Positions 18 to 30,452 of a stretch of DNA of 31,822 nucleotides are shown piece after piece. A program made the position numbers and the translations under genes. How positions within the stretch are numbered: position 1 is the first letter of the stretch; the number at the start of each line of letters is the position of its first letter. Where the stretch lies: the IMG/VR virus record IMGVR_UViG_3300023176_001551, positions 1 through 31,822 of that record; one strand, written 5' to 3'. The notes under the pieces are model-generated. The model was not told the origin of the DNA. It worked only from the letters and a program-made list of their open reading frames with translations, and did not search any database. The stretch comes from a virus.

Positions 18-1613
18 ATGACTGAAAAAGAATATATTGTTATTGTAAACAAAGATGTTGATTTAGCAGCCTTTGATGCAGAACTTGCTGCCGAAACAGG
101 CGCAGGTCCAATACCTGCTAGATCAGTGCTTGTAGCAAATCCGCGACCAGGATCAAAGCGTATGACACATTGGATGCTTACTGACGAAGAAGCAGCAGAA
201 TTACGCAATGACCCAAGAGTGTTAGAAGTTGAAATTCCGCCACAACATAGAGACGATATAAAAATAGGATTAAACTTAACTCAAACATTTGATTTTACTA
301 AAACCTCTGATCCTGATAATGGAAGAGCTAATTGGGGCTTACGCAGAGTTAATGCTGAAACAAATATTTACGGTGCCGGTTCTAACCCTACAGATCAGAA
401 CTATGAATATGCACTAGACGGTACAGGTGTAGATATTGTAATACAAGATACTGGCATACAAGCAGATCATCCAGAGCTACACGATAGTGAAGGAGTTAGC
501 AGGCTTGTAGAACTTGATTGGTACGCAGCAAGCGGTCTACCAGGAACAATGCCAGCAGATCACTATACAGACTATCACGGACACGGCACACATTGCGCAG
601 GAATAAGTGCAGGCAAAACTTACGGGTTTGCAAAAGGTGCAGCAATATACGCAATGAAAGTAGACGGCTTAGAAGGACCAACAGATCCTAACGGAGGAAT
701 ACCTGTTAGTGATTGTTTTGACACAATTAAAGAATGGCACAACAACAAGCCAGTTGATCCTGTTACAGGTTACAAGCGTCCAACTGTTGTTAACATGAGT
801 TGGGGTTATTCGGGTACACGCTTTCAAACTAATCCAACAGGAGGAGTATATAGAGGTATACCGTGGAATTATGCAGGAGAAAGTGGATTCCAACTTTGGG
901 GACAATATGGAATAGTACCCTTACTAAGTGACGGATTCACACAATTTAGAAACATTCCAGTAAGAGTAGCAAGTGTAGATGTAGATATAGAAGAACTTAT
1001 AGATGCAGGAGTACATGTGTGCATTGCCTCAGGAAATAACTATCATAAAATTGATATTCCTACTGGCGCAGATTATGATAACACTGTTGATTTGGGAGGC
1101 GGACAAGAAGCATATCATAGAGGTAGCAGTCCTTATTCATTACGTGCTTTTATGACAGGAAATATAGACAGCGCCACTGAAGATGATGCAGGTACTGCAA
1201 GAGATAAAACTGCTGGAAGTAGTTGTAAAGGACCTGGAGTAAATATTTGGGCACCTGGCACTGATATTATTAGTTCAGCAAGCAATGTAACGGTGTTTGG
1301 TAGTTCTACAGGAGATTACGACGGCACATACAATCTAGCAAATATAGGCGGAACTTCAATGGCAGCACCACAGGTTGCAGGTGTATTGTGTTTGCATTGT
1401 CAAGTTAAACCTTATATTACTACAGACAAATTACTAGAAACAATTACAAATGATGCTAAACCTGTATTATATAGCACAGGACTAGATAATGACTATGATG
1501 CTTATACAGTATCTATCATGGGATCACCAAATAGAATGTTATACAGTAGATACGGAAAACAACCTGTTACTACAACAGCATCGATTACAAATACAAGTTT
1601 AAACGCAGGATAA
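18..1613 (+). CDS. Subtilisin-like serine protease (peptidase S8), probably virion-associated
   Basis: 531 aa endopeptidase of the subtilase fold. The catalytic triad is complete: Asp144 in QDTG, His189 in HGHGTHCAG, Ser447 in GGTSMAAP. The oxyanion-hole Asn340 lies in ASGNN. Residues 1-80 resemble a short propeptide/inhibitor-like region rather than a signal peptide, and no membrane segment is visible. The start at 18 is the first ATG; only 17 bases lie upstream, so its promoter is outside the window. It is followed 19 bases later by a structural gene behind a late-promoter octamer, which suggests a role in the particle, for example processing a structural protein or cutting host surface protein at entry. 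The family call is secure; substrate and virion location are inferred. It is distinct from the T4 prohead protease gp21, which is not a subtilase. Confidence 0.9.
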   Translation: MTEKEYIVIVNKDVDLAAFDAELAAETGAGPIPARSVLVANPRPGSKRMTHWMLTDEEAAELRNDPRVLEVEIPPQHRDDIKIGLNLTQTFDFTKTSDPDNGRANWGLRRVNAETNIYGAGSNPTDQNYEYALDGTGVDIVIQDTGIQADHPELHDSEGVSRLVELDWYAASGLPGTMPADHYTDYHGHGTHCAGISAGKTYGFAKGAAIYAMKVDGLEGPTDPNGGIPVSDCFDTIKEWHNNKPVDPVTGYKRPTVVNMSWGYSGTRFQTNPTGGVYRGIPWNYAGESGFQLWGQYGIVPLLSDGFTQFRNIPVRVASVDVDIEELIDAGVHVCIASGNNYHKIDIPTGADYDNTVDLGGGQEAYHRGSSPYSLRAFMTGNIDSATEDDAGTARDKTAGSSCKGPGVNIWAPGTDIISSASNVTVFGSSTGDYDGTYNLANIGGTSMAAPQVAGVLCLHCQVKPYITTDKLLETITNDAKPVLYSTGLDNDYDAYTVSIMGSPNRMLYSRYGKQPVTTTASITNTSLNAG

Positions 1614-11865: not shown

Positions 11866-12513
11866 ATGCCAATCACATCATTAAACAATATTTCGGTCCC
11901 AACAGAAGGCGCTGGCAGTAACCAGAGCTTGTTGATGCCAAAACTACAGTATCGCTTCCGTGTAATCCTAGAAGGATTTGGAGCAGGTGCTGACCTTAGA
12001 GAAATGACACGTCAGGTTGTAGATGTTACAAGACCTAACTTGACATTTGAACAAATTACAATTGACGCTTATAACTCAAGAAGTTACCTAGCTGGTAAAC
12101 ACACTTGGGATCCAATTACACTAACATTGCGTGAAGATGTTAATAATAACATTCAACGTGTAGTTGGACAGCAGTTACAGAAGCAGTTCGATTTCTTCGA
12201 GCAAGCATCAGCAGCAGCAGGCGGCACATACAAATTTAAAACAAAAATTGAAATCTTAGACGGTGGTAACGGAAACTTAGAAGCAAACGTTCTAGATAGA
12301 TATGAACTAGTTGGTTGCTATGTTGAAGCAGCAAACTATAATTCACTAGCATATGCAACTAACGATCCAGTTACAATTTCACTGACTATACGTTACGATA
12401 ATGCTATACAAACAGAGCCAGGCGGCGCAATTGGCGGCGGTGTTGGCGACTCAGTAGGAAGAGCATCAGGCGGTACAGACGGACCTCAGGTTCTAGTTAC
12501 TGGCCAGAGCTAA
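11866..12513 (+). CDS. gp19: Tail tube protein gp19-like
   Basis: 215 aa; T4 gp19 is 163 aa. The order sheath then tube with a separate strong promoter and ribosome site (AGGAGAGG) fits a protein needed in many copies. Segments LQYRFRVILEGFG, REMTRQVVDVTRPNLTFEQITIDAYNSRSYLAGKHTWDPITLTLRED and RYELVGCYVEAANYNSLAYATNDPVTISLTIRYDNA are typical of the tube beta-barrel fold with its DPI-LTLR strand and the long C-terminal strand. The last 35 residues are Gly-rich (AIGGGVGDSVGRASGGTDG), likely flexible. A paralogous tube-fold protein follows at 12611. The family call is good from order and pattern. Confidence 0.85.
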   Translation: MPITSLNNISVPTEGAGSNQSLLMPKLQYRFRVILEGFGAGADLREMTRQVVDVTRPNLTFEQITIDAYNSRSYLAGKHTWDPITLTLREDVNNNIQRVVGQQLQKQFDFFEQASAAAGGTYKFKTKIEILDGGNGNLEANVLDRYELVGCYVEAANYNSLAYATNDPVTISLTIRYDNAIQTEPGGAIGGGVGDSVGRASGGTDGPQVLVTGQS

Positions 12514-12610: not shown

Positions 12611-13798
12611 ATGGCACAACAAGTAGTAGATAGACAAAACCTTAGAGATGCACGTCATGCTCACAACCTTTATACAAAGGGCGGATTCGACTGGGCTCCA
12701 AAAGTTAAATTCCTTTATCATGTAAGTTTCGAACTTACTGACGAAGCAAGACAATTTGCAAGTACAACAGCACAGTATAATAAAGTTATCAATGTTCTTG
12801 TTAAAACAGCAGATTTACCTAGCTATAGCTCAACAATAGAAACAAAGAAACAATACAATAGAACTAAACACATGCAAACTAGGATTGATTATGATCCTAT
12901 TAATATTGCTTTCCATGATGACAATGTAGGTATTACATCTAAACTACTTGAAGAATACTACAGATATTATTTTAAAGATGGTAGTAAATTTGGCTCAGCA
13001 GGCACGCCTAAGGATTTTGGTCCAAGAGACAAATACAGAGAAAGTGTACCTAGATATGGACTAGATGGCGGACCTGCAACTCCTTTTTTTAAGAGTATTA
13101 AGATATTTCAATTAGCAAGACATGAGTGGATCGGTTACACACTTGTTAATCCTTTAGTAGAAAAATGGCAACACGATAGCGTAGATGCATCAGACGGCGC
13201 AGGAACTACACAAAATGCTATTACAGTTCTATACGAAAGTGTCCTATATAGTAGAGGAGCAGTAACCGAAAGCGGAGATCCACCAGGATTTGCTGACACA
13301 GATACAGGGTACGACTTAACAGATAGTTATCTTAAAAACGGACCTATATATTCAGTTGCACAGAATATTAGACTGCAAGAGCCAACTGAAATACCCGGTG
13401 ATACAGGACCTTTGGTTAAATTTGCTAACGATATTATTCCAGGATCTGGATCAATAATAGGTGACTTGCTAAAAAATCCAGGTGGATTCCCTAATATATT
13501 ATTTCCAAAGCCTGCCGCAGCATCTAATGCTTCTACATTATCAACTAGTAGTAATAAAATCCTTCCTGCATCAGAAGTTACACGTATTTTAAGAAGTAAT
13601 GAAAGCGCAAAAAGGTCATTTACAAATCAAGCAGTTTTAACAGGACAAGTTGCAGGATTTGCAGTTACAACGTTAAATGCGTTCAATAGTTTACCTAGCA
13701 CACAAAAAACAGCAATAACTAATAATTTAATAGATGCAGTAGATGCAGGTAATAAAAAATTACAACAAATAGGCAGTAACGTTATAAAAGGATTATAA
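12611..13798 (+). CDS. Second tail-tube-fold virion protein (tube-associated or tube initiator candidate)
   Basis: 395 aa. Residues about 30-230 resemble the tube fold and a family widespread in marine T4-like phages: VKFLYHVSFELTDEA, then YNRTKHMQTRIDYDPINIAFHDDN, LLEEYYRYYFKDG, FFKSIKIFQLARHEWIGYTLVNPLVEKWQHD, and a QNAITVLYESVLYSRGAV strand. The DPINIAFHDD strand parallels DPITLTLRED of the gp19 homologue just upstream, which suggests common ancestry. The C-terminal 130 residues are Ala/Ser/Asn-rich, low in complexity and probably extended. It could be a baseplate-tube initiator of the gp54 type or an extra tube component. The start is set by the late octamer 5 bases upstream. Structural role likely; exact position unproven. 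Confidence 0.6.
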   Translation: MAQQVVDRQNLRDARHAHNLYTKGGFDWAPKVKFLYHVSFELTDEARQFASTTAQYNKVINVLVKTADLPSYSSTIETKKQYNRTKHMQTRIDYDPINIAFHDDNVGITSKLLEEYYRYYFKDGSKFGSAGTPKDFGPRDKYRESVPRYGLDGGPATPFFKSIKIFQLARHEWIGYTLVNPLVEKWQHDSVDASDGAGTTQNAITVLYESVLYSRGAVTESGDPPGFADTDTGYDLTDSYLKNGPIYSVAQNIRLQEPTEIPGDTGPLVKFANDIIPGSGSIIGDLLKNPGGFPNILFPKPAAASNASTLSTSSNKILPASEVTRILRSNESAKRSFTNQAVLTGQVAGFAVTTLNAFNSLPSTQKTAITNNLIDAVDAGNKKLQQIGSNVIKGL

Positions 13799-13799
13799 T

Positions 13800-14171
13800 A
13801 TGGCAGTATCAGATTACCCAGGACAAAGTGTAGTAGACAGTGCAAATAAAACTAAAAAGTTTTTTGACCAATACTATCAAAAAGACATATATTACAGTGC
13901 AGAAGAAGTAGATGCAGCGATTAGTTATTTCCTATCAAGAGGATTTGATGAAATATCTGCAACAAATACAGCAGTAGTTCTTTTACAACAAGCACAATTA
14001 GAAGATGTTCCTGTTTTTAAAATTATTGACACATTAAAAGGTCTTACTGAAGTTCAGCTTAGTAATGTTGTTGCGCAAATTCTAAATATTAATAGAGGTA
14101 AAACTAGTACACTAGGATTTCGTGTAGATAACCCTGTAACTAAATTAGAACAGAGAAATATCGTTGTATAA
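13800..14171 (+). CDS. Small conserved virion protein, unknown function
   Basis: 123 aa starting 1 base after the previous stop, so probably coupled. The body is helical: FFDQYYQKDIYYSAEEVDAAISYFLSRGFDEISA, AVVLLQQAQLEDVPVFKIIDTLKGLTEVQLSNVVAQILNINRGKTS, with a conserved-looking tail GFRVDNPVTKLEQRNIVV. I recognise this as a family that accompanies the tail and neck genes of T4-like marine phages, but without a defined role. It contains no cysteine cluster, membrane segment or catalytic motif. It sits between a tube-like protein and gp4, which suggests tail or head completion. The next gene overlaps by one base (TAATG). Confidence 0.7.
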   Translation: MAVSDYPGQSVVDSANKTKKFFDQYYQKDIYYSAEEVDAAISYFLSRGFDEISATNTAVVLLQQAQLEDVPVFKIIDTLKGLTEVQLSNVVAQILNINRGKTSTLGFRVDNPVTKLEQRNIVV

Positions 14172-14608
14172 TGTCACGTTTTGCACAAGGAAAATTCAAT
14201 CTAAAAAACCCTGAGAAATACATAGGTAATAGAACTCCTACATATAGATCTGGTTGGGAATTTACCTTTATGAAATTTTGCGATGAGCATCCAGCAGTTG
14301 CAAAATGGGCAAGTGAAGCAATACGAATACCTTATAGAAATCCGCTAAGTGGAAAGCACACAATTTATGTTCCTGACTTTTTTATTGTTTATAATGACAG
14401 AAAAGGCAAGCAACGTATAGAGCTAATAGAAGTTAAGCCTAGTAATCAAGCACGTAAAGACAAACTAGGCAGATCTAAGCATAATCAAGCTCATTGGATT
14501 GTAAATCAAGCAAAATGGGAAGCAGCTAGAGCTTATGCAAAGCAAAATAAAATGCTGTTTAGAATTGTTACAGAAGAAGATATTTTTCACAACGGTAGAC
14601 GCAGATAA
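14171..14608 (+). CDS. gp4: Head completion protein gp4-like, PD-(D/E)XK nuclease fold
   Basis: 145 aa. The whole protein parallels T4 gp4 (also called gp50), which acts after packaging to let tails join filled heads: KNPEKYIGNRTPTYRSGWEFTFMKFCDEHPAVAKWASEAIRIPY, then VPDFFIVY, ELIEVKPS, and the ending WEAARAYAKQNKMLFRIVTEEDI. PDF plus EVK form a PD-(D/E)XK-type metal site like that of TnsA-type endonucleases, so DNA end trimming is plausible. The start shares an A with the previous stop. Length and motif order match the T4 protein closely. The family call is strong; nuclease activity is inferred from the motif. Confidence 0.88.
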   Translation: MSRFAQGKFNLKNPEKYIGNRTPTYRSGWEFTFMKFCDEHPAVAKWASEAIRIPYRNPLSGKHTIYVPDFFIVYNDRKGKQRIELIEVKPSNQARKDKLGRSKHNQAHWIVNQAKWEAARAYAKQNKMLFRIVTEEDIFHNGRRR

Positions 14609-14611
14609 ATA
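14604..14611 (+). promoter_or_regulatory. Late promoter octamer GATAAATA (halogenase)
   Basis: It overlaps the gp4 stop codon. The halogenase ATG lies 25 bases later behind GGAG at 14628-14631, so the transcript has a conventional leader. Confidence 0.6.
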
Positions 14612-14636: not shown

Positions 14637-16112
14637 ATGCACATAGTAATAGTGGGCGGCGGCACAGCAGGCTGGCTTGCAGCATTTATGTTAAACAAAG
14701 TCCAACCAAGTCATAAAATTACAGTAATCGAATCTAGTAAAATAGGTATAGTAGGAGCAGGCGAAGGCAGTACAGGCTTACTTACATCTATTCTTGATGG
14801 TAATTTATTTGAGGTTGATTTTAGCATATTAGATTTTATGCGTGAAACTGGTAGTACACTAAAGTACGGGATAAAGCATAAAGATTGGACAGGCCCAGGA
14901 ACTGATTATTTTGGACCGTTAGGAGGTAGTGATACTGCAACCAGTATTAAAGATTACTTTTTTGCATTACAATATTTAGAAGGTAATACGCATACTAGTG
15001 CTAATTTAGGCATAATGTATGATAATGATTATAGTCCTTATAACGGTAAAACATTTATAGATAGTAGCTTTAGTTTTCATTTTGACGCACACAAAGTTGG
15101 CCAATTTTTTGCAAAAAGATCTAATGCAACAACAATTGATGCCGTAGTAAAATCTGTAAACAGAAACGAGCAAGGTTTTATTACTAGTTTAGATTTAGAC
15201 AACAATACAAATATAGAAGGTGATTTTTTCATAGATGCAACAGGATTTGCAAGAGTGCTTACAGATTCCAAATGGCAAAGTTACAGTTACAATTTACCAG
15301 TAAACAGTGCTATGCCTTTTTTAATTCCTAGCAAAGAAAAGTTTGAACCTTGGACAACTGCTTGGGCACAAACAGCTGGCTGGATGTGGCAAATACCAAC
15401 AACAGAACGTATAGGTTGCGGATATGTTTTTGATGATAGATTTACAACACCAGATAAAGCACAAGAAGAAATAGAAACTGTACTAGGACACAGCATTGAT
15501 CCTATAAGAATATTAAAATTTGATACAGGTAGACTTGACAAATTTTGGAATAAAAATTGCCTAGCAATAGGGTTATCAGCAGCATTTGCAGAACCGCTAG
15601 AAGCAACAAGTATACACTCAACAATAGTACAACTAATAAAGTTTGTTTTTGACAGTATTACAGAAACACCTTCATACAATCATAACGAATCTAATGTATA
15701 TCAATATAATTATGATGTTGGACTAATGTACGATAACTTTAAAGATTTTTTAAATTTACATTATCAAGGTAATAGAACTGATTCTGAATTTTGGCGTTAC
15801 GTTTCAAGTGGAGAAATAGATACAGATGCAATTAAACAAATAAAAGACTTATGCAAATATAGAATGCCTACTGCTAAAGACTTTGATTACAAGTTTGGCT
15901 TTGCAGGCTACGATTTATGGATATATGTATTAGCAGGTACAAATGTACTGTCAAAAGAGGTTGTAAAAAATAGTCTAATTTTATCAGCAGATAAAATTGC
16001 GTTATGGAAAGATCGTTTATCAACAGTGCAACAAAATGTACACAAAACTTACGAATTTAATTTAAGATATCAAAAGTTCATGCAACATGTGCTAAATAAT
16101 AATAGCATATAA
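14637..16112 (+). CDS. Flavin-dependent (tryptophan-type) halogenase
   Basis: 491 aa FADH2-dependent halogenase. The FAD-binding Rossmann motif is GGGTAGW (residues 7-13). The halogenase signature WxWxIP is present as WMWQIP (249-254). A Lys in the position of the catalytic lysine lies in TLKYGIKHKDW (Lys76), and the PLExTSI motif carries the catalytic-type Glu322. These are the features that separate halogenases from related monooxygenases. A cyanophage halogenase, VirX1, is known to iodinate diverse substrates, so this family occurs in marine phages. It is a late gene between gp4 and gp16, with the gp16 start overlapping its stop by one base. The native substrate is unknown; no flavin reductase gene is visible, so host reductant is presumed. 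Confidence 0.92.
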   Translation: MHIVIVGGGTAGWLAAFMLNKVQPSHKITVIESSKIGIVGAGEGSTGLLTSILDGNLFEVDFSILDFMRETGSTLKYGIKHKDWTGPGTDYFGPLGGSDTATSIKDYFFALQYLEGNTHTSANLGIMYDNDYSPYNGKTFIDSSFSFHFDAHKVGQFFAKRSNATTIDAVVKSVNRNEQGFITSLDLDNNTNIEGDFFIDATGFARVLTDSKWQSYSYNLPVNSAMPFLIPSKEKFEPWTTAWAQTAGWMWQIPTTERIGCGYVFDDRFTTPDKAQEEIETVLGHSIDPIRILKFDTGRLDKFWNKNCLAIGLSAAFAEPLEATSIHSTIVQLIKFVFDSITETPSYNHNESNVYQYNYDVGLMYDNFKDFLNLHYQGNRTDSEFWRYVSSGEIDTDAIKQIKDLCKYRMPTAKDFDYKFGFAGYDLWIYVLAGTNVLSKEVVKNSLILSADKIALWKDRLSTVQQNVHKTYEFNLRYQKFMQHVLNNNSI

Positions 16113-16627
16113 TGGAAAGTCCTATGACAAAAAAACTAGAAGATTTATTAAACTTGCCAGACGCAAAAGAAATAATAGAAACTGCTGAAGCGCAAGAAGC
16201 TGATCAAAAGCAATATGAAGTTCAAGAACAAGAAAAAACTTTTAGAGACATAGCAGAATTTGATAAAATTGCAGCAGCACTACCTAGCGTTAAAGGATTG
16301 GGAGAAGCAGCTGACAAAGAATTAAATGAAGTTGCAGATAAAGCAATGCAAGCATACGAAGACTTAATGGATCTTGGTATGAATGTTGAAAGTCGTTATA
16401 GTGGGCGTGTTTTTGAAGTTGCTGGAGGCATGCTAAAAACATCACTTGATGCTAAAACTGCAAAACTAGATAAAAAATTAAAAATGATTGAACTACAACT
16501 TAAAAAAGAAAAAATGGATAGAGATAGTTCTACGGATACAGGCGATATAGTAAACGGTGAAGGGTACGTTGTTACTGATAGAAACAGTCTACTAGAACGC
16601 CTCAAAGGGCTAGATAAAGATAAATAA
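16112..16627 (+). CDS. gp16: Small terminase subunit gp16-like
   Basis: 171 aa, helical and charged. It fits gp16 layout: an acidic N-terminus, a central helical pair for oligomerisation (ELNEVADKAMQAYEDLMDLGMNVESRYSGRVFEVAGGMLKTSLDAKTAKLDKKLKMIELQLKKEK, residues about 68-135), then a short C-terminal motif GYVVTDRNSLLERLKGL comparable to the T4 gp16 end. gp16 forms a ring that recognises DNA and stimulates gp17. The start overlaps the halogenase stop (TAATG); an ATG at 16124 (MTKKLEDL) with GGAAAG upstream is an alternative. Unlike T4, gp16 and gp17 are separated by two genes. The assignment rests on pattern and context. Confidence 0.72.
   Translation: MESPMTKKLEDLLNLPDAKEIIETAEAQEADQKQYEVQEQEKTFRDIAEFDKIAAALPSVKGLGEAADKELNEVADKAMQAYEDLMDLGMNVESRYSGRVFEVAGGMLKTSLDAKTAKLDKKLKMIELQLKKEKMDRDSSTDTGDIVNGEGYVVTDRNSLLERLKGLDKDK
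16619..16626 (+). promoter_or_regulatory. Late promoter octamer GATAAATA (16650 gene)
   Basis: It overlaps the gp16 stop codon. AGGA at 16638-16641 and the ATG at 16650 follow, giving a leader of about 18 bases. Confidence 0.55.
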
Positions 16628-16649: not shown

Positions 16650-17207
16650 ATGAGTACATTTGTAGAAATACTTAACGAATCTAAAAAAACCTATGAATTT
16701 AAAATAGGCGTAGCAGGCGTATTGCCAGAAGGCTTTGCTGATCAATTAGAAACAGCAATGAAAAAGTTTTCAGTTGCAAAAATGAGTGCAGGCAAGAAAA
16801 CACCTATCCAAGAACGTCCTTTAGATTTTCCACAATTACAAAACACAGAAGTAACATATTACGAAGTTGAAGTTGAATACCCGACAACTAGCCAAGTATT
16901 ACAAGAATACGTAGGACAGTGCTGTGGTATTGATCAGTCACACGTAATTGTACGCAATGCAAACGATCCGAGAGAAGAATATCAAGATGAAAAGGATGAC
17001 TCACCTTATGAGCCTATGCTTACAACTGAAGAGCTAGGTGGCGAAAGCGGCCAAGACGGTGTAGCAGGAAACAGAGTAATGGACCTGCTAAAGGAACTAG
17101 AGGCGGCCCGTAAGGAAAGAGGACATGATCCAGCAGAAGCTGCTCCACAAGGAGAGTCGGCTGATATTGATATGAAAGAAAATACAAAATCGGTCGTAGG
17201 AGGCTAA
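16650..17207 (+). CDS. Head/scaffold candidate with small alpha-beta N-terminal domain
   Basis: 185 aa. Residues 1-115 look like a compact alternating alpha-beta domain (KKTYEFKIGVAGVLPEGFADQLETAMKKF, then TEVTYYEVEVEYPTTSQVLQEYVGQCCGI, SHVIVRNANDP), perhaps ferredoxin-like. Residues 116-185 are acidic, Gly/Ala-rich and probably disordered, with a helical patch VMDLLKELEAARKERG. I do not recognise a named family. The location between the two terminase genes, late expression and the following highly charged gene suggest a prohead core or internal head protein, but that is inferred only. AGGA precedes the ATG and the next start lies 1 base after the stop. Confidence 0.65.
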   Translation: MSTFVEILNESKKTYEFKIGVAGVLPEGFADQLETAMKKFSVAKMSAGKKTPIQERPLDFPQLQNTEVTYYEVEVEYPTTSQVLQEYVGQCCGIDQSHVIVRNANDPREEYQDEKDDSPYEPMLTTEELGGESGQDGVAGNRVMDLLKELEAARKERGHDPAEAAPQGESADIDMKENTKSVVGG

Positions 17208-17919: not shown

Positions 17920-19500
17920 ATGAGCAAAAGTTTAGACGGCGTACTCACTAAAAAAGCCAATACTAAAGAAACATACACCGAAGCACAAATACAAGATCTT
18001 GCGCAATGCATGGATCCAGACTTAGGCTATCTATATTTTGCAAAACATTTTGCATTTATACAGCATCCTGTAAAAGGTAAACTGTTGTTTGATCCTTATG
18101 AGTATCAACTACGGCTAATGCATAGCTATCATACATATAGGTTTAACATCAACATGATGCCTAGACAAACAGGTAAGACAACCTGTGCTGCTATCTATCT
18201 TGCATGGTATGCGATGTTTAATCCAGACCAAACTATCCTAATTGCCGCACACAAATACACAGGTGCTCAAGAGATTATGGCACGTATACGTTATGTGTAC
18301 GAAACTTGTCCGGATCATATTAGGGCAGGTGTTACAAGTTACAACAAAGGCAGTATCGAGTTTGAGAATGGTAGTAGGATTGTTTCGCAAACAACAACAG
18401 GGAACACAGGACGTGGTATGAGTATCTCGCTACTATACTGTGACGAGTTTGCGTTTGTTATGCCTAACATTGCGGAAGAGTTTTGGACTTCGATATCACC
18501 TACACTGGCAACAGGTGGTCGTGCTATTATTACAAGTACACCTAACAGTGACGAAGACACATTCGCTACTATTTGGAAACAAGCAGAACAAAAGTTTGAT
18601 GAACACGGTAATGAAAGCGAAGTAGGAATAAACGGATTTCATTCATTTAGAGCAAATTGGGAAGAACATCCTGATCGTGACGAGGAATGGAAGACTGCTG
18701 AAATTGGACGTATTGGTGAAGAAAAGTTCCGCCGTGAATATGGCTGTGAGTTTTTAGTATTTGATGAAACTCTAATTAACTCTATTAAACTTGCAACAAT
18801 GGAAGGTGTAAGTCCTATATTAAATATGGGACAAACACGCTGGTACAAAAAGCCAACTAATCAATATACATATGCTATTGCTTTAGATCCGAGTATGGGC
18901 ACAGGAGGAGACTATGCTGCTATACAGGTATTCGAATTACCTAGCTATGAACAAGTTGCAGAATGGCAACACAACCAAACTGCTATACCCGGACAAATTA
19001 GAGTACTGTCAGATATTTGTAAGTATATAGAACAAGAAACAAAAAATACACAAGGAATATATTGGAGTGTAGAAAACAATGGCCTGGGAGAAGCCGCACT
19101 TATTGTTATCAATGACTTTGGGGAGGAAAATATTCCTGGTCTGTTCGTTAGCGAACCAATCCGCAAAGGACATGTTAGAAAGTTCCGCAAAGGATTCAAC
19201 ACAACGCACAGCACCAAAGTTACAGCTTGTTCCAGACTCAAAACAATGATAGAAAATGATAAGATGCGTGTACATTCAAAACCTTTAATCTCAGAATTAA
19301 AAGGCTTTGTCGCTACAAACACAAGTTATCAAGCCAAAGTAGGTATGACTGATGATTTAGTGAGTGCTACACTGTTGGCTTTGCGTATGATAGATGTTCT
19401 TAAAGATTGGGATCCGAGAGTTTACGACACTTTTAATCAGACAGATCATATAGAAGAACATGATATGCCAATGCCTATTTTTATTAGCTCGAATTATTAA
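17920..19500 (+). CDS. gp17: Large terminase subunit gp17-like (packaging ATPase/nuclease)
   Basis: 526 aa motor that pumps DNA into the prohead and cuts concatemers. The ATPase domain has Walker A RQTGKTT (82-88), Walker B LLYCDE (Asp175, Glu176) and the coupling motif ITSTPN (204-209). The RNase H-like nuclease domain has Asp323 in ALDPSMGTGGD, Glu385 in SVENNGLG and Asp478/Asp479 in MTDDLV. All active-site residues are present and the length suits the family (T4 gp17 is 610 aa). The start at 17920 is fixed by the octamer 5 bases upstream; the next in-frame Met is residue 31. It is separated from gp16 by two genes and a terminator. Confidence 0.96.
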   Translation: MSKSLDGVLTKKANTKETYTEAQIQDLAQCMDPDLGYLYFAKHFAFIQHPVKGKLLFDPYEYQLRLMHSYHTYRFNINMMPRQTGKTTCAAIYLAWYAMFNPDQTILIAAHKYTGAQEIMARIRYVYETCPDHIRAGVTSYNKGSIEFENGSRIVSQTTTGNTGRGMSISLLYCDEFAFVMPNIAEEFWTSISPTLATGGRAIITSTPNSDEDTFATIWKQAEQKFDEHGNESEVGINGFHSFRANWEEHPDRDEEWKTAEIGRIGEEKFRREYGCEFLVFDETLINSIKLATMEGVSPILNMGQTRWYKKPTNQYTYAIALDPSMGTGGDYAAIQVFELPSYEQVAEWQHNQTAIPGQIRVLSDICKYIEQETKNTQGIYWSVENNGLGEAALIVINDFGEENIPGLFVSEPIRKGHVRKFRKGFNTTHSTKVTACSRLKTMIENDKMRVHSKPLISELKGFVATNTSYQAKVGMTDDLVSATLLALRMIDVLKDWDPRVYDTFNQTDHIEEHDMPMPIFISSNY

Positions 19501-23731: not shown

Positions 23732-24186
23732 TGGGATGGTATAGCGAGATATCTCGTGACATATCAAAAATACCCGCAGCAATTGCACACTTTGAATCAG
23801 AACTTATGGTTGCTAAAAACGAATGTAAACTTGTAGGTAATGTTGAAAAAAGTGCGGCTGCTATGCCAGGTATTGTTGAACATCGGTTTAACCAGCTTCA
23901 AGAAATTGAAGCAATTCTAAATTATCTAAATATTGAGCTACGTAGATTGCGTAGTTCATTCTTCAAAAAATATCTTGAAAATTATCAACGAGCCCTGTCT
24001 AGCCGTGACGTTGAAAAATACGTTGACGGCGAGGCAGACGTTGTTGACTATGAAAAGATTATCAACGAGTTTGCACTAATGCGTAACAAATGGTTAGGTG
24101 TACTCAAAGGACTTGATCAAAAGCAGTGGCAAATTACTAACGTGGTTAAACTACGTGTAGCAGGAATGGAAGATGCCACGTTATAG
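23731..24186 (+). CDS. UvsY-like recombination mediator candidate
   Basis: 151 aa, nearly all helical. The pattern from residue about 85 onward resembles UvsY: a KYLENYQRAL turn, an acidic helix with VDYEKIINEFALMRNKWLGVLKGL, and a basic end WQITNVVKLRVAGMED comparable to the QIKN...R segment of UvsY. UvsY loads UvsX onto gp32-coated DNA, and T4 UvsY is 137 aa. Position behind uvsX and close length support the idea. Overall similarity is weak, so it may instead be another helical recombination protein. The start shares an A with the previous stop. The following pyruvyltransferase overlaps its end by 14 bases. Confidence 0.5.
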   Translation: MGWYSEISRDISKIPAAIAHFESELMVAKNECKLVGNVEKSAAAMPGIVEHRFNQLQEIEAILNYLNIELRRLRSSFFKKYLENYQRALSSRDVEKYVDGEADVVDYEKIINEFALMRNKWLGVLKGLDQKQWQITNVVKLRVAGMEDATL

Positions 24187-24877
24187 ATTTTATTGGGTTG
24201 GTAATAATACTACTGGAAATTTTGGTGACGTATTAACACCAAAACTACTTGATCATTTTGGAGTAGACTATGAATTTACTAGAGGTAGTGACTATAATGC
24301 AATTTGCATAGGATCTATTGCAAGACATGCTAAAAAAGATACACTAGTTTTAGGCAGTGGATTTATGTCTAAGAAAAATCCTTGCGAAATAAATGCTGAT
24401 TGGAAATTTGTAAGAGGTCCTAGATCAAAAGCAAAATTGGAATCACACGGTGGCAGGACTTCAGAAATTATGGGAGATCCTGCGTTACTACTTCCTTTGT
24501 TCTGTGATGAAAGCAAAAAGAAACATGATGTAGCAATTATTCCTCATGTAAGTCAGTATGCTTGGGCAAAAGAAAACTTTCCAAAATATCACGTGATTAA
24601 TTTAAAAACAAAAAATGCACTTACAAAAGCAAAAGAAATTTCAGAATGTAGAACTGTAATTAGTAGTTCGTTGCACGGTATTATTGCTGCACATGCATAC
24701 GGCATACCTGCTGCATATGTTGAATTTGAAGATGGCATAAAAGGTGACGGAACTAAGTTTCAAGATCATTATGAAAGTATTGGTCTTACAGCAGAATTAT
24801 CTACAGTAAAAGATCCTAAATTTACAACAGGAACATTTGATATAGAAAAACTTGCAGAGTTTTTCAAAGATCTTTAA
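24173..24877 (+). CDS. Polysaccharide pyruvyltransferase family protein
   Basis: 234 aa enzyme of the PS_pyruv_trans family, which adds pyruvate ketals from phosphoenolpyruvate to sugars of surface glycans. Visible family landmarks are GNFGDVLTPKLLDHFG (15-30), LGSGFM (60-65), VRGPRSKAKL (80-89), MGDPALLLP (100-108) and the C-terminal SSSLHGIIAAHAYGIPAAYVEF (164-185), where the SLHG His is the expected key residue. It is shorter than cellular relatives (about 300 aa or more), so it is a compact version. It overlaps the UvsY-like gene by 14 bases, placing a glycan gene at the end of the recombination operon. Its end overlaps the convergent sulfotransferase by 4 bases. Acceptor sugar unknown. 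Confidence 0.82.
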   Translation: MPRYRFYWVGNNTTGNFGDVLTPKLLDHFGVDYEFTRGSDYNAICIGSIARHAKKDTLVLGSGFMSKKNPCEINADWKFVRGPRSKAKLESHGGRTSEIMGDPALLLPLFCDESKKKHDVAIIPHVSQYAWAKENFPKYHVINLKTKNALTKAKEISECRTVISSSLHGIIAAHAYGIPAAYVEFEDGIKGDGTKFQDHYESIGLTAELSTVKDPKFTTGTFDIEKLAEFFKDL

Positions 24878-25506
24878 AATTCATAATTAAATTTATTTAA
24901 ATCATCAGCAAATATTTTTTCAATTATTTGCCTTGTATTTTTGTTGTAATATTCTCTATAATGCTTATGATTAGTACGATTTGTATGAGGTAGTGGAATA
25001 CTACAGTTAAACATATCTTGGATATTTCTAAATTTTAAATCTAATTCTTCTGCCTTAAACCAAGTTGTGTTTTCGCCTAGCCAATGTGTTTGTGGCGTTT
25101 TTCTTTCATACATCCAAATACCTAAGTCAAAAGGATTGTGTATATTGTTAGAATGTTCTTCTAACCAATTTTCAAAACCCTTGTTATAATATTCTGCAAT
25201 AATTAAATCATCTTGTTGATTTGTGCTTTTCTTAGTTCTTTGTCCTAGCTTTCGCATCTCAATTCTTTCAACTGCACGTTGTCCTATGAAATGATACATG
25301 CTTACCATCCTTGCATAAGGGTTACGCACAAAGCAAAAAGTATATCCCAATTTTTTCCAAATTAGTTTAGCATCGTCGTATGTGCAGTGTTTTTGTTGTC
25401 TGTCATGAGTAATGTTATTATCTCTAATCCATTGCTCAAAACTGCTTCCTGCTGTTTTAGGTATGTGTATAAAAGTAATCTTATGTTTAGGAAAATGTAT
25501 TGCCAT
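24874..25506 (-). CDS. Sulfotransferase (PAPS-dependent, carbohydrate type)
   Basis: 210 aa. The PAPS-binding 5'-phosphosulfate loop is HIPKTAGSSFEQW (14-26) and the 3'-phosphate motif is RNPYARMVSMYHF (61-73), the two hallmarks of the family. It would transfer sulfate to a sugar or, less likely, a protein. I set the start at 25506 (MAIHFPKHK) rather than 25533, because the leftward TATAAATA ends at 25512 and 5 bases lead to this ATG; the upstream ATG would lie before the transcript start. It is divergent from the nucleotidyltransferase-cupin operon. With the pyruvyltransferase it implies an acidic glycan. It needs host PAPS; no PAPS synthesis gene is seen. Confidence 0.88.
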   Translation of the reverse strand: MAIHFPKHKITFIHIPKTAGSSFEQWIRDNNITHDRQQKHCTYDDAKLIWKKLGYTFCFVRNPYARMVSMYHFIGQRAVERIEMRKLGQRTKKSTNQQDDLIIAEYYNKGFENWLEEHSNNIHNPFDLGIWMYERKTPQTHWLGENTTWFKAEELDLKFRNIQDMFNCSIPLPHTNRTNHKHYREYYNKNTRQIIEKIFADDLNKFNYEF

Positions 25507-25511
25507 GAAAA

Positions 25512-25519
25512 TATTTATA
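25512..25519 (-). promoter_or_regulatory. Leftward late promoter TATAAATA (sulfotransferase)
   Basis: Read on the minus strand from 25519 to 25512, an exact T4 late consensus. Five bases (TTTTC) separate it from the ATG at 25506, so a leaderless transcript is predicted. Confidence 0.75.
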
Positions 25520-25532
25520 TTTAATGTGCGCA

Positions 25533-25540
25533 TATAAATA
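25533..25540 (+). promoter_or_regulatory. Rightward late promoter TATAAATA (glycan operon)
   Basis: Exact T4 late consensus. Five bases (TCAGT) separate it from the ATG at 25546. It drives six end-to-end genes up to 30452 and forms a divergent pair with the sulfotransferase promoter. Confidence 0.75.
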
Positions 25541-25545
25541 TCAGT

Positions 25546-26316
25546 ATGAAAGTAGTCTTAGTTACTGGAGGGTTCGATCCTCTACATTCAGGTCATATTG
25601 AATATTTTAAAGCAGCAAAAGAATTAGGCGATGTGTTGCATGTTGGCCTAAATTCAGATGATTGGCTTACACGTAAAAAAGGTCGTCCGTTTATGCCTTT
25701 TGCAGAACGGGCGGCTGTAATTGAAAATTTAGAAATGGTAGACAAAGTTATTGCGTTCGACGATAGTGATGACAGTGCCTGCGGTGCTATATACAAAACT
25801 ATGGCAACACACGGTAGAATAAAAATTATATTTGCTAACGGGGGCGATAGAACTAATACTACAACGCCTGAGTATGAAACATATGGCGACTCGTCAAATG
25901 TAGAGTTTGCATTCGGTGTTGGCGGACAAGACAAAAAGAATTCTAGTAGTTGGATACTCGAAGAATGGAAAGCACCTAAAACAGAGCGCAGTTGGGGGTA
26001 TTATAGAGTGATACATGAATATGAAAATCATACAAAGGTAAAAGAACTAGCAGTTCCACCTGGACATAAACTATCAATGCAACGTCACAAAGAACGCAGT
26101 GAACACTGGTTTGTTGCAGAAGGAACAGCAACAGTATACACTATTAATGTAAGTTCTGATTACGAACTTGTAGGAAGATATAAACAACACGAAAGTTTGC
26201 ATATACCAGTTGGAACATGGCATCAACTTGCAAACGAAGACAGAATACCTTTGAAACTTGTAGAAATACAGTACGGTACAAACTGTATTGAGGAAGATAT
26301 AGAAAGAAGAGATTAA
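25546..26316 (+). CDS. Nucleotidyltransferase-cupin fusion (cytidylyltransferase-like plus ManC-type cupin)
   Basis: 256 aa in two domains. Residues 1-140 form a small nucleotidyltransferase: GGFDPLHSGH (8-17, the HxGH motif), GLNSDD, RPFMPFAERAAVI (47-59) and FANGGDR, like HldE/TagD-type cytidylyl- or adenylyltransferases that activate sugar phosphates. Residues 147-250 are a cupin like the C-terminal isomerase domain of ManC: RSWGYYRVI, VPPGHKLSMQRHKERSEHW (His181, His187), then HIPVGTWHQL (His226). Together they could activate and isomerise or bind a sugar phosphate for glycan synthesis. ManC normally pairs this cupin with a much larger GTP-dependent domain, so the pairing is unusual. The next start shares an A with its stop. 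Confidence 0.82.
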   Translation: MKVVLVTGGFDPLHSGHIEYFKAAKELGDVLHVGLNSDDWLTRKKGRPFMPFAERAAVIENLEMVDKVIAFDDSDDSACGAIYKTMATHGRIKIIFANGGDRTNTTTPEYETYGDSSNVEFAFGVGGQDKKNSSSWILEEWKAPKTERSWGYYRVIHEYENHTKVKELAVPPGHKLSMQRHKERSEHWFVAEGTATVYTINVSSDYELVGRYKQHESLHIPVGTWHQLANEDRIPLKLVEIQYGTNCIEEDIERRD

Positions 26317-26990
26317 TGAAAGTATTTGTAGGTTATGATACTAGAGAAGATATTGCATATCAAGTTTGTAAGCATAGCATTCTCAACAAACAACCGGCAG
26401 CAGATGTGCGACCGCTTAAACAACAAGAACTACGTGATGCTGGTTGGTATACAAGAAGTTTAGATAAACTTGCAAGTACAGAATTTACGTTTACACGTTT
26501 CCTTATACCAGAACTTACAAACTTTAAAGGCTGGGCATTGTTTATGGATTGTGATATGATCCTTACAACAGATATTAAAGAACTATTTGATCAAGCAGAC
26601 GACAAGTATGCAGTAATGTGTGTGCAACACGATTACACACCTAAAGAAGGCACAAAAATGGATGGACAGAAACAGACTATCTATCCACGTAAGAACTGGT
26701 CAAGCGTTATGTTGTTTAATTGTGCGCATCCTAGCAATGCTGCACTTACAATGGACCTAGTTAATAGTCCAGAAATAAATGGAGCATATCTACACAGGTT
26801 TAGTTGGTTGAAAGATGAGGAAATTGGAGAATTGGATCACACTTGGAATTATCTTGTTGGTGTTTACAATGACATTGATGTTCCAAAACTAATACACTAT
26901 ACCGAAGGTGGTCCTTGGTTTGAAAACTATCGTAACTGCGAATTTGCACAATTATGGAAAGACGAATTACAGGATATGATGAATGGCTAA
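26316..26990 (+). CDS. Glycosyltransferase (GT-A, GT8-like)
   Basis: 224 aa. The N-terminus MKVFVGYDTREDIAYQVCKHSI begins a nucleotide-binding fold, and GWALFMDCDMIL contains the metal-binding DxD (Asp78-Cys79-Asp80). The following KNWSSVMLFNCAHP and LDHTWNYLVG, with IHYTEGGPWFENY near the end (a His in the position used by GT8 enzymes for metal or sugar diphosphate), fit a retaining transferase of the LgtC type. It is cytoplasmic, without membrane segments. It would add one sugar from a nucleotide donor, possibly made by the preceding fusion enzyme. It starts on the previous stop (TAATG) and overlaps the next gene by 8 bases. Confidence 0.82.
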   Translation: MKVFVGYDTREDIAYQVCKHSILNKQPAADVRPLKQQELRDAGWYTRSLDKLASTEFTFTRFLIPELTNFKGWALFMDCDMILTTDIKELFDQADDKYAVMCVQHDYTPKEGTKMDGQKQTIYPRKNWSSVMLFNCAHPSNAALTMDLVNSPEINGAYLHRFSWLKDEEIGELDHTWNYLVGVYNDIDVPKLIHYTEGGPWFENYRNCEFAQLWKDELQDMMNG

Positions 26991-27777
26991 TGATGCTGGA
27001 AAGCATGAACGTAGAATGCATATTGAGTACCCTGACGGCACAGTGTATCCTGGTAAGAAAGACTTTAGACATTGGACAAAGTTTTTAGGATTAGACGAAC
27101 TTGACTTTACAGGTAAACGTGTGTTAGATGTAGCTACCAACGAAGGTTGGTGGGCTTTGTGGTCTGAAATGCAAGGTGCTAGTTATGTAGAAGCAACGGA
27201 CGTAGAACGTGGTGAAGATTACGATTGGGGCAACAACAAGGATTGGGATTGGATTGAAAAACTAAACAAAAATCGTGGCGGTAGAGATGTATTAGAATTT
27301 CATATAAAAAATCTTAATAGTAATGTAATTGTAAAAAAAGAAAACATATACGAAGCAAGCGGAGATTTTGATTTTATATTCGCACACGGATTAATGTATC
27401 ATCTAAGACATCCACTACTTGCAATAGATAATATGTACAAATGCTGTCACGGTATTTTTATATTTGAAACATTTGTAGATTCTAGATCCAATCAGTATTG
27501 TGCGCAAAATAAGTTTTATAGAACAAATGAATTAAATGCATCTTCAAATTGGACCGGTGCTACTACTTCGTGCTATGCTAGTTGGTTAAAAGATGCAGGG
27601 TTTAGAGATATATTTTATTCTCATATAGGCGACGGTCCTGTTGGAAACACACGAGCTTTTTTTGTTGCAGTTGAAGATGAAAAGTATACTCCTATGTTTG
27701 CAGCAAACAAAAATTTAAATTATTGCAACGAGCAATATTGGGAAACAGTTTACTTGAACACAAAGTTTGATAAATGA
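26983..27777 (+). CDS. SAM-dependent methyltransferase, class I
   Basis: 264 aa. Motif I is VLDVATNEGWWALWSEMQGA (47-66), followed by the acidic end of strand 2, VEATDVERGED. A motif-IV-like segment reads DFDFIFAHGLMYHLRHPLLAIDNM, which is close to the CmoB-like family of methyltransferases and carboxymethyltransferases. The DxGxxxG of motif I is DVATNEG, a common variant. Position in the glycan operon argues for methylation of a sugar hydroxyl or carboxyl rather than of tRNA, but the substrate cannot be read. It overlaps both neighbours by a few bases (8 upstream, 4 downstream, ATGA), consistent with one polycistronic message. Confidence 0.85.
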   Translation: MANDAGKHERRMHIEYPDGTVYPGKKDFRHWTKFLGLDELDFTGKRVLDVATNEGWWALWSEMQGASYVEATDVERGEDYDWGNNKDWDWIEKLNKNRGGRDVLEFHIKNLNSNVIVKKENIYEASGDFDFIFAHGLMYHLRHPLLAIDNMYKCCHGIFIFETFVDSRSNQYCAQNKFYRTNELNASSNWTGATTSCYASWLKDAGFRDIFYSHIGDGPVGNTRAFFVAVEDEKYTPMFAANKNLNYCNEQYWETVYLNTKFDK

Positions 27778-28544
27778 TTTGTCTAAGCAAAAATAAAACA
27801 GATGAATACGTTAACATGTTTGCAAACGGAGCAAACTTGCCTATCCAAGATTATAATTATCAATTTGGCAATAATCCTATAATGATAAGAAGTATGGGCA
27901 AACGTAAACTAATACACTGGTGTTGGAAAAACAATCATACATTTTATTATATGGATAGTGGATATGTAGGAAACTATAAATCAAATACTAATCCTTACGG
28001 TTGGAAACTATATCACCGTATAGTAAAAAATGATGTGCAACATAATGAAATAATTGACAGACCAGATGACAGATGGAAAAGATTAAATTATAAAATTAAA
28101 AAACCAAACAGTGGAAGATATATTTTACTTGTAACACCTAGCGAAAAACCTTGTAAGTTTTATGGCATAGATAGAGATATCTGGGTAGAGCAAACTGTAG
28201 AACAAATAAAACAGCATACAGATCGTCCTATAAAGATAAGAGATAAAGCACCAAGACAGCAGCGTATAACGAATACAATATTTCAAGACTTACACGATGC
28301 ACACGCACTTGTTACCTATCAAAGTGTAGCAGCGATTGAAAGTGTGCTTGAAGGTGTACCAGCATTTACTCTTGCACCAACTGCTGCTGATCCAGTTTGT
28401 GATAAAGATTTAAGCCTTATTGAAACACCAACAATACACGATCAGGATAAAATATATAAATGGGCCAGTCATCTAGCCTACGGACAATTTCATATAAACG
28501 AGTTCAAAGATGGAACCGCATGGAGAATATTAAATGAAATATAA
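27774..28544 (+). CDS. Putative GT-B-like glycosyltransferase, paralogue 1 of 3
   Basis: 256 aa. It is the shortest member of a three-gene tandem family. Shared blocks are TDRPIKIRDK (149-158), HALVTYQSVAAIESVLEGVPAF (177-198) and the ending WASHLAYGQFHINEFKDGTAW. The middle block (VTYxSxxAIExxLxGVP) is the sort of C-terminal nucleotide-sugar-binding motif seen in capsule-synthesis GT-B enzymes such as KpsC/KpsS. In this copy the usual HP after the RPI block is replaced by DKAP, so the site may be altered. No membrane segment. It overlaps the next gene by 11 bases. The glycosyltransferase role is inferred from motifs and context. Confidence 0.65.
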   Translation: MICLSKNKTDEYVNMFANGANLPIQDYNYQFGNNPIMIRSMGKRKLIHWCWKNNHTFYYMDSGYVGNYKSNTNPYGWKLYHRIVKNDVQHNEIIDRPDDRWKRLNYKIKKPNSGRYILLVTPSEKPCKFYGIDRDIWVEQTVEQIKQHTDRPIKIRDKAPRQQRITNTIFQDLHDAHALVTYQSVAAIESVLEGVPAFTLAPTAADPVCDKDLSLIETPTIHDQDKIYKWASHLAYGQFHINEFKDGTAWRILNEI

Positions 28545-29535
28545 AGTGTTTATGAACAGTGCAGGCACTAACAGAGAAAGAGATGTGCTTCGTGCGTTCC
28601 ACGAAGGAATAACAACTACTATCCCAACAGAAAAAGCTGAATATAAAAAGTTACGCAACTTTAACAAAGAACAAGGTTGGGGTACTGGTGTTGACTTTGA
28701 CTATAACGAAAAGTACAGTAAGTGTGAAGTTGCTGTTATGTACGGCAGTTGGAAGCCAGAACGTACTAATATTCATCACACTGTTAGAGCAAGCGTGTAT
28801 GATAAAGCAACAACTTTTATTTGTATTGAAACTCCTTTACTAGGAAGAAAGATTACTAATCATCATTCATACTACAGAGTTGGTGTAAACGGCTTTTTAA
28901 ATCATGCTGCTGAGTGGGGATTTACTGACAATTGCCCTTCGGACAGATTTGATGCACTGAACTTAGAATATAACGGCTTTAGAAAGCATAGAGGTAATAA
29001 AATTGTAGTTGCATTACAGTTAGCAGGAGATGCAAGTTTACGTCACAACGATATTAATGAATGGGCTGTAGACACTGTGCAAGAACTTCGCAGGTACAGT
29101 GACAGGCCAATTGAGATCAGAGTACATCCTGCAATAAGTGAAAAGGGTATGACTAATCACAACGATCTTTTTAGACGATTGGCATTCCTTGGATTAAACA
29201 ATGTAAAAGTTATAGACGGAACTAGACAAGCATTTGAGTATCAATGTAAAGATGCATATGCAGTAGTTACATATTCCAGCGGTCTAGCAATAGATGCATT
29301 GCTGTTCGGTGTACCTGTATTAACATGTGACGAAGGCGGGTTTGCATATGATATTACTGAAAATAAATTAATGAATATTGAATCAATGTATCTTCCTGAC
29401 GAAGACAAGGTTAAGCAATGGTTGTATAATCTAGCATATTGCCAGTGGCGTGTAGAAGAGATGCAAGACGGTACTGTAATTAATCATTTGATGCCTGCAA
29501 TTACCGAAAGCGTAAAAAGAGGACCACAAGATTAA
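28534..29535 (+). CDS. Putative GT-B-like glycosyltransferase, paralogue 2 of 3
   Basis: 333 aa and the longest of the trio. Blocks: VAVMYGSWKP (67-76), ETPLLGRKITNHHSYYRVGVNGF (99-121), SDRPIEIRVHP (189-199), DAYAVVTYSSGLAIDALLFGVPVLTC (240-265) and LAYCQWRVEEMQDGTVINHL near the end. IRVHP keeps the His-Pro that paralogue 1 has lost. The arrangement suits two Rossmann-like halves of a GT-B enzyme or of a related capsule-synthesis protein. Translation probably couples through the 11-base overlap with the previous gene, and the next start shares an A with its stop. Donor and acceptor unknown. Confidence 0.65.
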   Translation: MKYKVFMNSAGTNRERDVLRAFHEGITTTIPTEKAEYKKLRNFNKEQGWGTGVDFDYNEKYSKCEVAVMYGSWKPERTNIHHTVRASVYDKATTFICIETPLLGRKITNHHSYYRVGVNGFLNHAAEWGFTDNCPSDRFDALNLEYNGFRKHRGNKIVVALQLAGDASLRHNDINEWAVDTVQELRRYSDRPIEIRVHPAISEKGMTNHNDLFRRLAFLGLNNVKVIDGTRQAFEYQCKDAYAVVTYSSGLAIDALLFGVPVLTCDEGGFAYDITENKLMNIESMYLPDEDKVKQWLYNLAYCQWRVEEMQDGTVINHLMPAITESVKRGPQD

Positions 29536-30452
29536 TGCAAGTTATCAGTTACTTAAAAGGCATCCCGTCTAAAAATAAAAATCCAGAAAAAGAACAAGTT
29601 TTGAGATATTTTGCTCAAGGTGTAGATGCTTACGGTGATAACGGCATACAGTCGCAAAGTGATAGGTGGATACCTAGTGATGTTGGTGTTATACAAGGAT
29701 ATGTACATGAGTCAAGTCCTAATAGTCCTCATCTAAGATTACGTAAGAGTGTAATTGATAACCAAAAAAAATCTGGGAAGCATAGTATTATAATTGATAG
29801 TAATTTATTTTTATATGTAGACAAAAACAATCCACATCATTACTTACGATATAGTTTAGACGGTGTATTCCCTACTACAGGAAATTACTTTTGGGATAAT
29901 CCTGATCCTGCACGTTGGCAAAGTATAAGCAATAGACTCGGTTTAAGTTTAAAGCCGGAACGTAAAAAAGGACATCACATACTAATATGCCTGCAAAGGA
30001 ATGGCGGCTGGAGTATGAAGGGGTTAGACGTAATGAAATGGCTTTTTCAAACTATACAAACGTTGCGTATGTATACTGATAGGCCTATACTAGTGCGAGG
30101 ACATCCTGGAGACAAAAGGGCTAAACAGTATCTGCGCATAAACAAGCCAGGAGTAGTAGTATCAACCAATCCTGACATAAGAACAGATTTTATAAACTGT
30201 CATGCTGTAATTACATATAACAGCAGTCCTGGGGTAGCAGCAGCAATTGAAGGATTGCCTGTATTTGTTTTAGATCCTAATCCTAAAATTAGCCAAGCGT
30301 ATGATATTGCTAACGTTGATATCACTAAAATAGAAAATCCAGAATTTTATGATAGACAATCGTGGATAGAAAAGATTTCCATGAGCCATTGGAATTTTGA
30401 TGAGTTAAGAAACGGAAAGGCTTGGAAACATATGAGACCGTTTATTTCGTAG
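29535..30452 (+). CDS. Putative GT-B-like glycosyltransferase, paralogue 3 of 3
   Basis: 305 aa. It shares with its two neighbours VGVIQGYVHESSPNSPH (50-66), YLRYSLDGVFPTTGNYFWDNPDPARW (103-128), TDRPILVRGHP (181-191), CHAVITYNSSPGVAAAIEGLPVFVLDP (222-248) and the ending SHWNFDELRNGKAWKHM. The RGHP and TYNSS..VAAAIEG blocks are in good shape, so this copy looks active. It is the last gene of the rightward operon and its end overlaps the convergent GT-FkbM fusion by 11 bases, with no terminator in between. Function is inferred as sugar transfer in glycan assembly. Confidence 0.65.
   Translation: MQVISYLKGIPSKNKNPEKEQVLRYFAQGVDAYGDNGIQSQSDRWIPSDVGVIQGYVHESSPNSPHLRLRKSVIDNQKKSGKHSIIIDSNLFLYVDKNNPHHYLRYSLDGVFPTTGNYFWDNPDPARWQSISNRLGLSLKPERKKGHHILICLQRNGGWSMKGLDVMKWLFQTIQTLRMYTDRPILVRGHPGDKRAKQYLRINKPGVVVSTNPDIRTDFINCHAVITYNSSPGVAAAIEGLPVFVLDPNPKISQAYDIANVDITKIENPEFYDRQSWIEKISMSHWNFDELRNGKAWKHMRPFIS

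Follow-up and report, generated by a model that had tools for sequence, protein, structure and literature searches.

A probably late-expressed flavin-dependent halogenase at a gp4-gp16 cargo site of a jumbo myophage

The stretch of marine viral DNA analysed here (31,822 nucleotides, IMG/VR record IMGVR_UViG_3300023176_001551, hereafter the window) carries a flavin-dependent halogenase gene between gp4 and gp16 which, on balance and judging from sequence comparison, probably encodes a late-expressed tailoring enzyme that has moved from a tail-module set into a cargo site at the gp4-gp16 junction. The halogenase would be a mobile late cargo gene. Its own late promoter motif stands ahead of it, and the leader of gp16, including a variant promoter, has been kept and overlaps the halogenase 3' end. 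By kinship, the enzyme belongs to a clade of jumbo-phage halogenases that elsewhere form arrays with 2OG-Fe(II) oxygenases beside baseplate and tail-fibre genes, and in the same virus species an oxygenase run occupies the corresponding position just beyond the window. The features concerned are as follows.

18 to 1613, plus strand: S8 protease, at the left edge of the window
14171 to 14608, plus strand: gp4 head-closure/head-completion nuclease (PHROG 218, 1e-43; PF08722)
14604 to 14611, plus strand: T4-type late promoter motif GATAAATA, which overlaps the stop codon of gp4 and begins 33 nt before the halogenase
14637 to 16112, plus strand: flavin-dependent halogenase (PF04820, 491 aa), with E43, K76, W249-P254 and E319-I326 intact
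16091 to 16116, plus strand: conserved gp16 leader GCTAAATAATAATAGCATATAATGGA (variant late promoter), within and beyond the halogenase 3' end
16124 to 16627, plus strand: gp16 terminase small subunit (PHROG 445, weak, 1e-5), with the start corrected by comparison with relatives (MTKKLEDLLNLPD)
16619 to 16626, plus strand: the following late promoter motif GATAAATA, ahead of the virion gene at 16650 and bounding the halogenase-gp16 unit
17920 to 19500, plus strand: gp17 (large subunit of the terminase), sharing 54% identity with Pseudomonas jumbo phages of PA5oct type

The halogenase ORF lies where the first-pass annotation had placed it. Residues 3 to 442 of the protein matched the PF04820 profile (6.2e-92), and the protein also matched PHROG 2928, 'tryptophan halogenase' (7e-105). 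The hallmarks of the family had been described as intact, and all were found: the FAD motif GGGTAGW (GxGxxG, G7 to G12), the GxGE glutamate E43 in GAGEGST, the catalytic lysine K76, WxWxIP in the form WMWQIP, and the halide loop EPLEATSI, which includes the PLEATSI named earlier. An alignment with 64 phage homologs had 15 invariant positions, including G7, G9, G40, G42, E43, G248, W249, F317 and P320, and in the same alignment K76, W251, P254, E319 and L321 were at least 90% conserved. An AlphaFold2 model built from this alignment had a mean pLDDT of 94.8, and its best match was PyrH (Z 44.5, rmsd 2.2, 470 residues). By motif and by model, the window protein is a flavin-dependent halogenase of PyrH/PrnA-type fold, for which catalysis is predicted. 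Five same-species IMG/VR contigs were collinear with the window and 99.6 to 99.9% identical to it; three of these (99.9% identical) span gp4, the halogenase and gp16 and the other two cover one side each, and the arrangement is therefore no assembly chimera.

The Trp4 motif marks halogenases of free tryptophan, and is lacking from BrvH, MibH, VirX1 and the Xcc enzymes (PMC8269204). Either form of this motif was absent from the window halogenase and from all 148 phage and bacterial homologs searched, which places the enzyme outside the free-tryptophan halogenases of groups A and B. This absence argues against free tryptophan and names no substrate; the enzymes of the clade probably do not take free tryptophan. 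A phage-borne flavin reductase (PF01613) was rejected, as none was detected in 25 phage records (three of them isolates), with controls positive in 13 of 14 genomes, so that the host, or a reductase that escaped recognition, would have to supply reduced FAD. The clade enzymes seem to borrow a host flavin reductase. From the chemistry of the family, FADH2 supplied by that reductase would react with O2 and halide to form HOX, which by way of K76 would give a halogenated electron-rich ring. The substrate may be a late-made molecule, not free tryptophan, that is also hydroxylated by the oxygenases, although we are unsure of this.

The window has a T4-type gene order, with an S8 protease, baseplate connector, gp15, a gp14-like gene, gp13, the sheath (1092 aa) and two tail-tube genes, followed by gp4, the halogenase, gp16, virion proteins, gp17, gp32, UvsX, UvsY and then sugar and methyl transferases. 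The nearest kin of the terminase and sheath were found in jumbo phages of Pseudomonas (PA5oct type), Sinorhizobium (Phosso), Agrobacterium (Atu_ph07) and Vibrio. By these two proteins the virus is a jumbo myophage nearest to phages of PA5oct, Atu_ph07 and Phosso type, and a cyanophage origin was unsupported. The two tail-tube-like genes (11866 to 12513 and 12611 to 13798) differ from each other, stand in tandem with a late promoter motif on each, and are conserved in relatives. The region after UvsY (24173 to 31713) holds pyruvyl-, sulfo-, glycosyl- and methyltransferases and a cytidylyltransferase, and is variable in relatives L116, L118 and L121.

A first comparison of gp4-gp16 junctions covered seven relatives, in six of which gp16 directly followed gp4, while a methyltransferase-like ORF lay between the two in the seventh. 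In L116, whose gp4 is 77% identical, the junction has no insert and a halogenase adjoins the S8 protease instead. A junction survey of 80 gp4 relatives (68 to 87% identical) from related jumbo myophages gave 76 scorable junctions. The two genes were directly adjacent in 58 of these, and the remaining 18 held cargo: 12 sulfotransferase-like inserts, three methyltransferase-like inserts, one radical-SAM gene (L135), one small ORF and one halogenase (L185). An extra ORF accompanied three of the sulfotransferase-like inserts, which were observed in L127, L133, L145, L147, L148, L155, L162 to L164, L187, L198 and L200. The inserted halogenase (L185:3289-4518, 409 aa) is located downstream of a late-promoter leader, and since it is only 27% identical to that of the window, the two insertions must be independent. 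By its content in these relatives, the gp4-gp16 junction is a cargo site of this phage group that has repeatedly received extra genes, and the halogenase appears to lie among packaging genes because this junction docks them. Conservation of the gp4-halogenase-gp16 order, which the first-pass annotation had proposed to check, proved patchy, an outcome which that annotation had named as counting against its reading, with 58 of the 76 junctions empty, 17 with other cargo and one with an unrelated halogenase; a conserved order was thus ruled out.

In most relatives gp16 has the leader [GC]ATAAATAATAGTAGCATATAATGGA upstream and the start codon context ATGAC(T/A/C)AA (MTKKLE...), which corresponds to 16124 in the window, and gp4 is the only gene ahead of the leader. 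The halogenase 3' codons CTA AAT AAT AAT AGC ATA TAA (L N N N S I *) overlap this leader, so that the last six codons and the stop are read from it, with TAATG being part of the leader. Coupling of the halogenase to gp16 by a TAATG overlap had been claimed earlier; these letters do exist (16110 to 16114), but gp16 starts at 16124 and not at 16112, and translational coupling through TAATG was ruled out. In L116, the nearest of the first seven relatives, the ATG of the leader and gp16 are in different frames. An ending like that of the halogenase (STLNNTSI*) is seen in L117, in its methyltransferase-like insert. The presence of the leader in insert-free relatives suggests that it is older than the insert.

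The window was scanned for late motifs using NATAAATA, the form of the S-PM2 late promoter (PMC2984593). The count of 12 was not above chance (14.7 in shuffles), but 11 of the 12 were found at a correctly oriented gene start, for which 4.3% of window positions qualify (binomial p ~1e-14); the non-random feature of these motifs is their placement only. Because of the motif at 14604 to 14611 and the gene-start placement of 11 of the 12, the halogenase is very probably a late gene expressed from its own promoter, and the earlier assertion of late expression is thereby supported. In the sulfotransferase ORF at 24874 to 25533, the start is probably at 25506, because a minus-strand late promoter motif (25519) falls within the longer ORF, and a second late motif at 25533 faces the gene opposite.

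A quick maximum-likelihood tree built from 148 phage and bacterial proteins put the window halogenase together with jumbo-phage array members in a clade of 23 rows (SH-aLRT 99), itself nested in a 64-row clade with alphaproteobacterial proteins (SH-aLRT 99). The best phage-database matches were 34% identical, and a profile scan of IMG/VR gave many closer homologs, up to 53% identical. Thirty-four loci also carry at least one gene of the window's tail/neck module, and these contained 1 to 5 halogenases with 0 to 12 2OG-type oxygenase genes. In L025, L031, L034, L035, L036 and L040, 3 to 5 halogenases and 7 to 12 2OG-type oxygenase genes are located within about 20 kb by jumbo-phage tail genes, and the arrays adjoin baseplate wedge or tail-fibre genes in L006, L025, L034, L035 and L044. 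A GroEL-like chaperonin gene was observed by the halogenase array at L034:4691-6370 (Pfam match) and L035:4413-6083 (similar N-terminus). A 2OG gene was found within 4 kb of 69 of the 90 halogenase genes that had at least 3 kb of flanks (79 loci), whereas the 692 kb covered around gp4 in related phages held none; as this zero background comes from one genomic region only, clustering is demonstrated and function is not. Upstream late-promoter-like motifs exceeded expectation for the array halogenase and 2OG genes (12 of 133 against 2.1 expected; 16 of 111 against 1.9 in jumbo loci).

Beyond the left end of the window, outward of the S8 protease, the same-species contig L103 has genes for a tail/baseplate protein, a DUF6445 protein and a run of four oxygenases of PF13759 type (two being weak matches, E ~0.005). 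The halogenase is more than 14 kb from this oxygenase run, and an exact-match scan found no further contig extending left of the window.

Possible substrates are a virion protein of the tail and a molecule made late in infection. Our tentative first choice would be a tail-fibre or other surface structure, and otherwise a small molecule or glycan conjugate. A counterpoint to tail fibres is provided by L027 to L033 and L037 to L039, in which two adjacent halogenases are followed by PfkB/cytidylyltransferase and NAD-epimerase genes with no 2OG gene detected, an arrangement that points to sugars. A bolder and rather unlikely proposal is a late tailoring system in which several halogenases and many 2OG oxygenases act on defined positions of the jumbo phages' own tail fibres or other virion surface protein. 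Virions would then bear halogenated and hydroxylated residues, and the window gene, under a late promoter, would be a stray member of such a set.

We consider it possible, though doubtful, that the halogenase, oxygenases and carbamoyl- or glycosyltransferases jointly produce a halogenated metabolite, which would be directed against rival phages or competitors or would alter the host surface. A similar role was proposed by Iyer and colleagues for the cluster of jumbo cyanophage S-SSM6a, which combines a carbamoyltransferase, a halogenase and 2OG enzymes (PMC7824862). A Nol-like carbamoyltransferase adjoins the halogenase in L044, two halogenases share one operon with sugar-nucleotide genes in L027 and L030, and the window itself has sulfotransferase, cytidylyltransferase, GT8 and methyltransferase genes at 24 to 31 kb, all of which would suit such a route. 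However, a core scaffold-making enzyme was not seen in the arrays, their gene content varies greatly, and the late promoters and tail-gene neighbours suit structural timing.

The closest cellular homologs of the window halogenase were 36 to 43% identical and belonged for the most part to Alphaproteobacteria, a few being in MAGs that are labelled as Deltaproteobacteria, and others. Of 49 bacterial loci at least 14 kb long, 47 have the homolog set among GH4 glycosidases and an SBP_bac_5 (Opp-type) ABC importer, and some bacterial loci also had a PhyH gene. These conserved operons around the nearest bacterial kin (L205 to L284, for example L211:4331-15444) are an unexpected lead. No report of halogenases with glycoside hydrolases and TonB systems was found in a literature search on that combination, and a halogenase in GH4/ABC-importer operons may perhaps be undescribed. 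Together with the L027 and L030 operons, this context would fit a phage enzyme whose substrate is bound to or derived from a sugar, as could also hold for the bacterial kin, but we regard such a function as distinctly unlikely, as GH4 and the ABC importer are absent from the phage halogenase loci and, at an identity of only about 40% to the bacterial proteins, the phage enzyme could have a different substrate.

The lineage-specific insertion and the patchy cargo of the junction would also be expected of passive cargo, that is, an intact but dispensable gene without an important role for the window virus. This is improbable in our opinion, as the catalytic residues are retained at about 50% divergence from the nearest kin, the gene has its own late promoter, and each same-species contig differs by only 0 to 2 changes in the halogenase, although these are too few for testing selection. 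Least of all do we expect the packaging- or head-linked function at which the first-pass annotation had hinted, in which the enzyme would modify head or terminase proteins and its place by gp16 would matter, for although the position itself, the independent halogenase of L185 and the gp16-PhyH-halogenase-gp17 order of pelagimyophages (HTVC008M, L097) favour it, the junction is usually empty or filled with sulfotransferase, methyltransferase or radical-SAM genes, the closest viral kin lie elsewhere, near baseplate and tail-fibre genes, and other phage halogenases are found at gp55-gp47, within tail arrays or at unrelated positions. The halogenases between gp55 (late sigma factor) and gp47 were observed in another T4-like group (L062, L069, L071 and L072).

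With a late-expressed tailoring enzyme at a cargo site as the preferred explanation, the role of viral halogenases is narrowed, for this clade, to enzymes that look late, occur with 2OG oxygenases by tail-fibre genes, and probably do not act on free tryptophan. Halogen on a virion or tail protein, or in the late lysate, would be the trace to look for. A position by packaging genes can reflect a docking site, which is a warning for readings of function from neighbours.

The free-tryptophan enzymes PyrH, PrnA and RebH (PF04820) share with the window halogenase the fold, FAD box, GxGE glutamate, catalytic lysine, WxWxIP and EPLE(A/S)T halide loop, but they are about 24 to 27% identical to it, and the window enzyme has neither Trp4 nor a surrounding natural-product cluster. 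The active BrvH and Xcc halogenases (group C, PMC8269204) likewise have no Trp4, but they are bacterial and about 26% identical to the window halogenase. The first-pass annotation had drawn a comparison with VirX1 of cyanophages Syn9 and Syn10 (PDB 6QGM; 1271 bits for the Syn9 copy), which holds loosely, insofar as both are viral flavin-dependent halogenases without Trp4 and the Syn9 copy, like the array clade, is near tail-fibre and 2OG genes. VirX1 is, however, 24% identical, differs in genome position and phage group, and falls far from the window halogenase in the tree, where it groups with Syn9gp41, S-B64 and others; the window virus is not a cyanophage, and membership of the VirX1 subfamily was ruled out by the distant clade and low identity. 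The halogenase of pelagimyophage HTVC008M also lies among late structural genes, by gp16 and with PhyH-type oxygenases nearby, but it sits between PhyH and gp17 and belongs to another clade, and its placement is therefore separate. The S-SSM6a cluster resembles the present phages in combining a halogenase with 2OG enzymes and carbamoyltransferases, whereas here there are up to five halogenases per array, the jumbo group is a different one, and one member is located at a late packaging junction.
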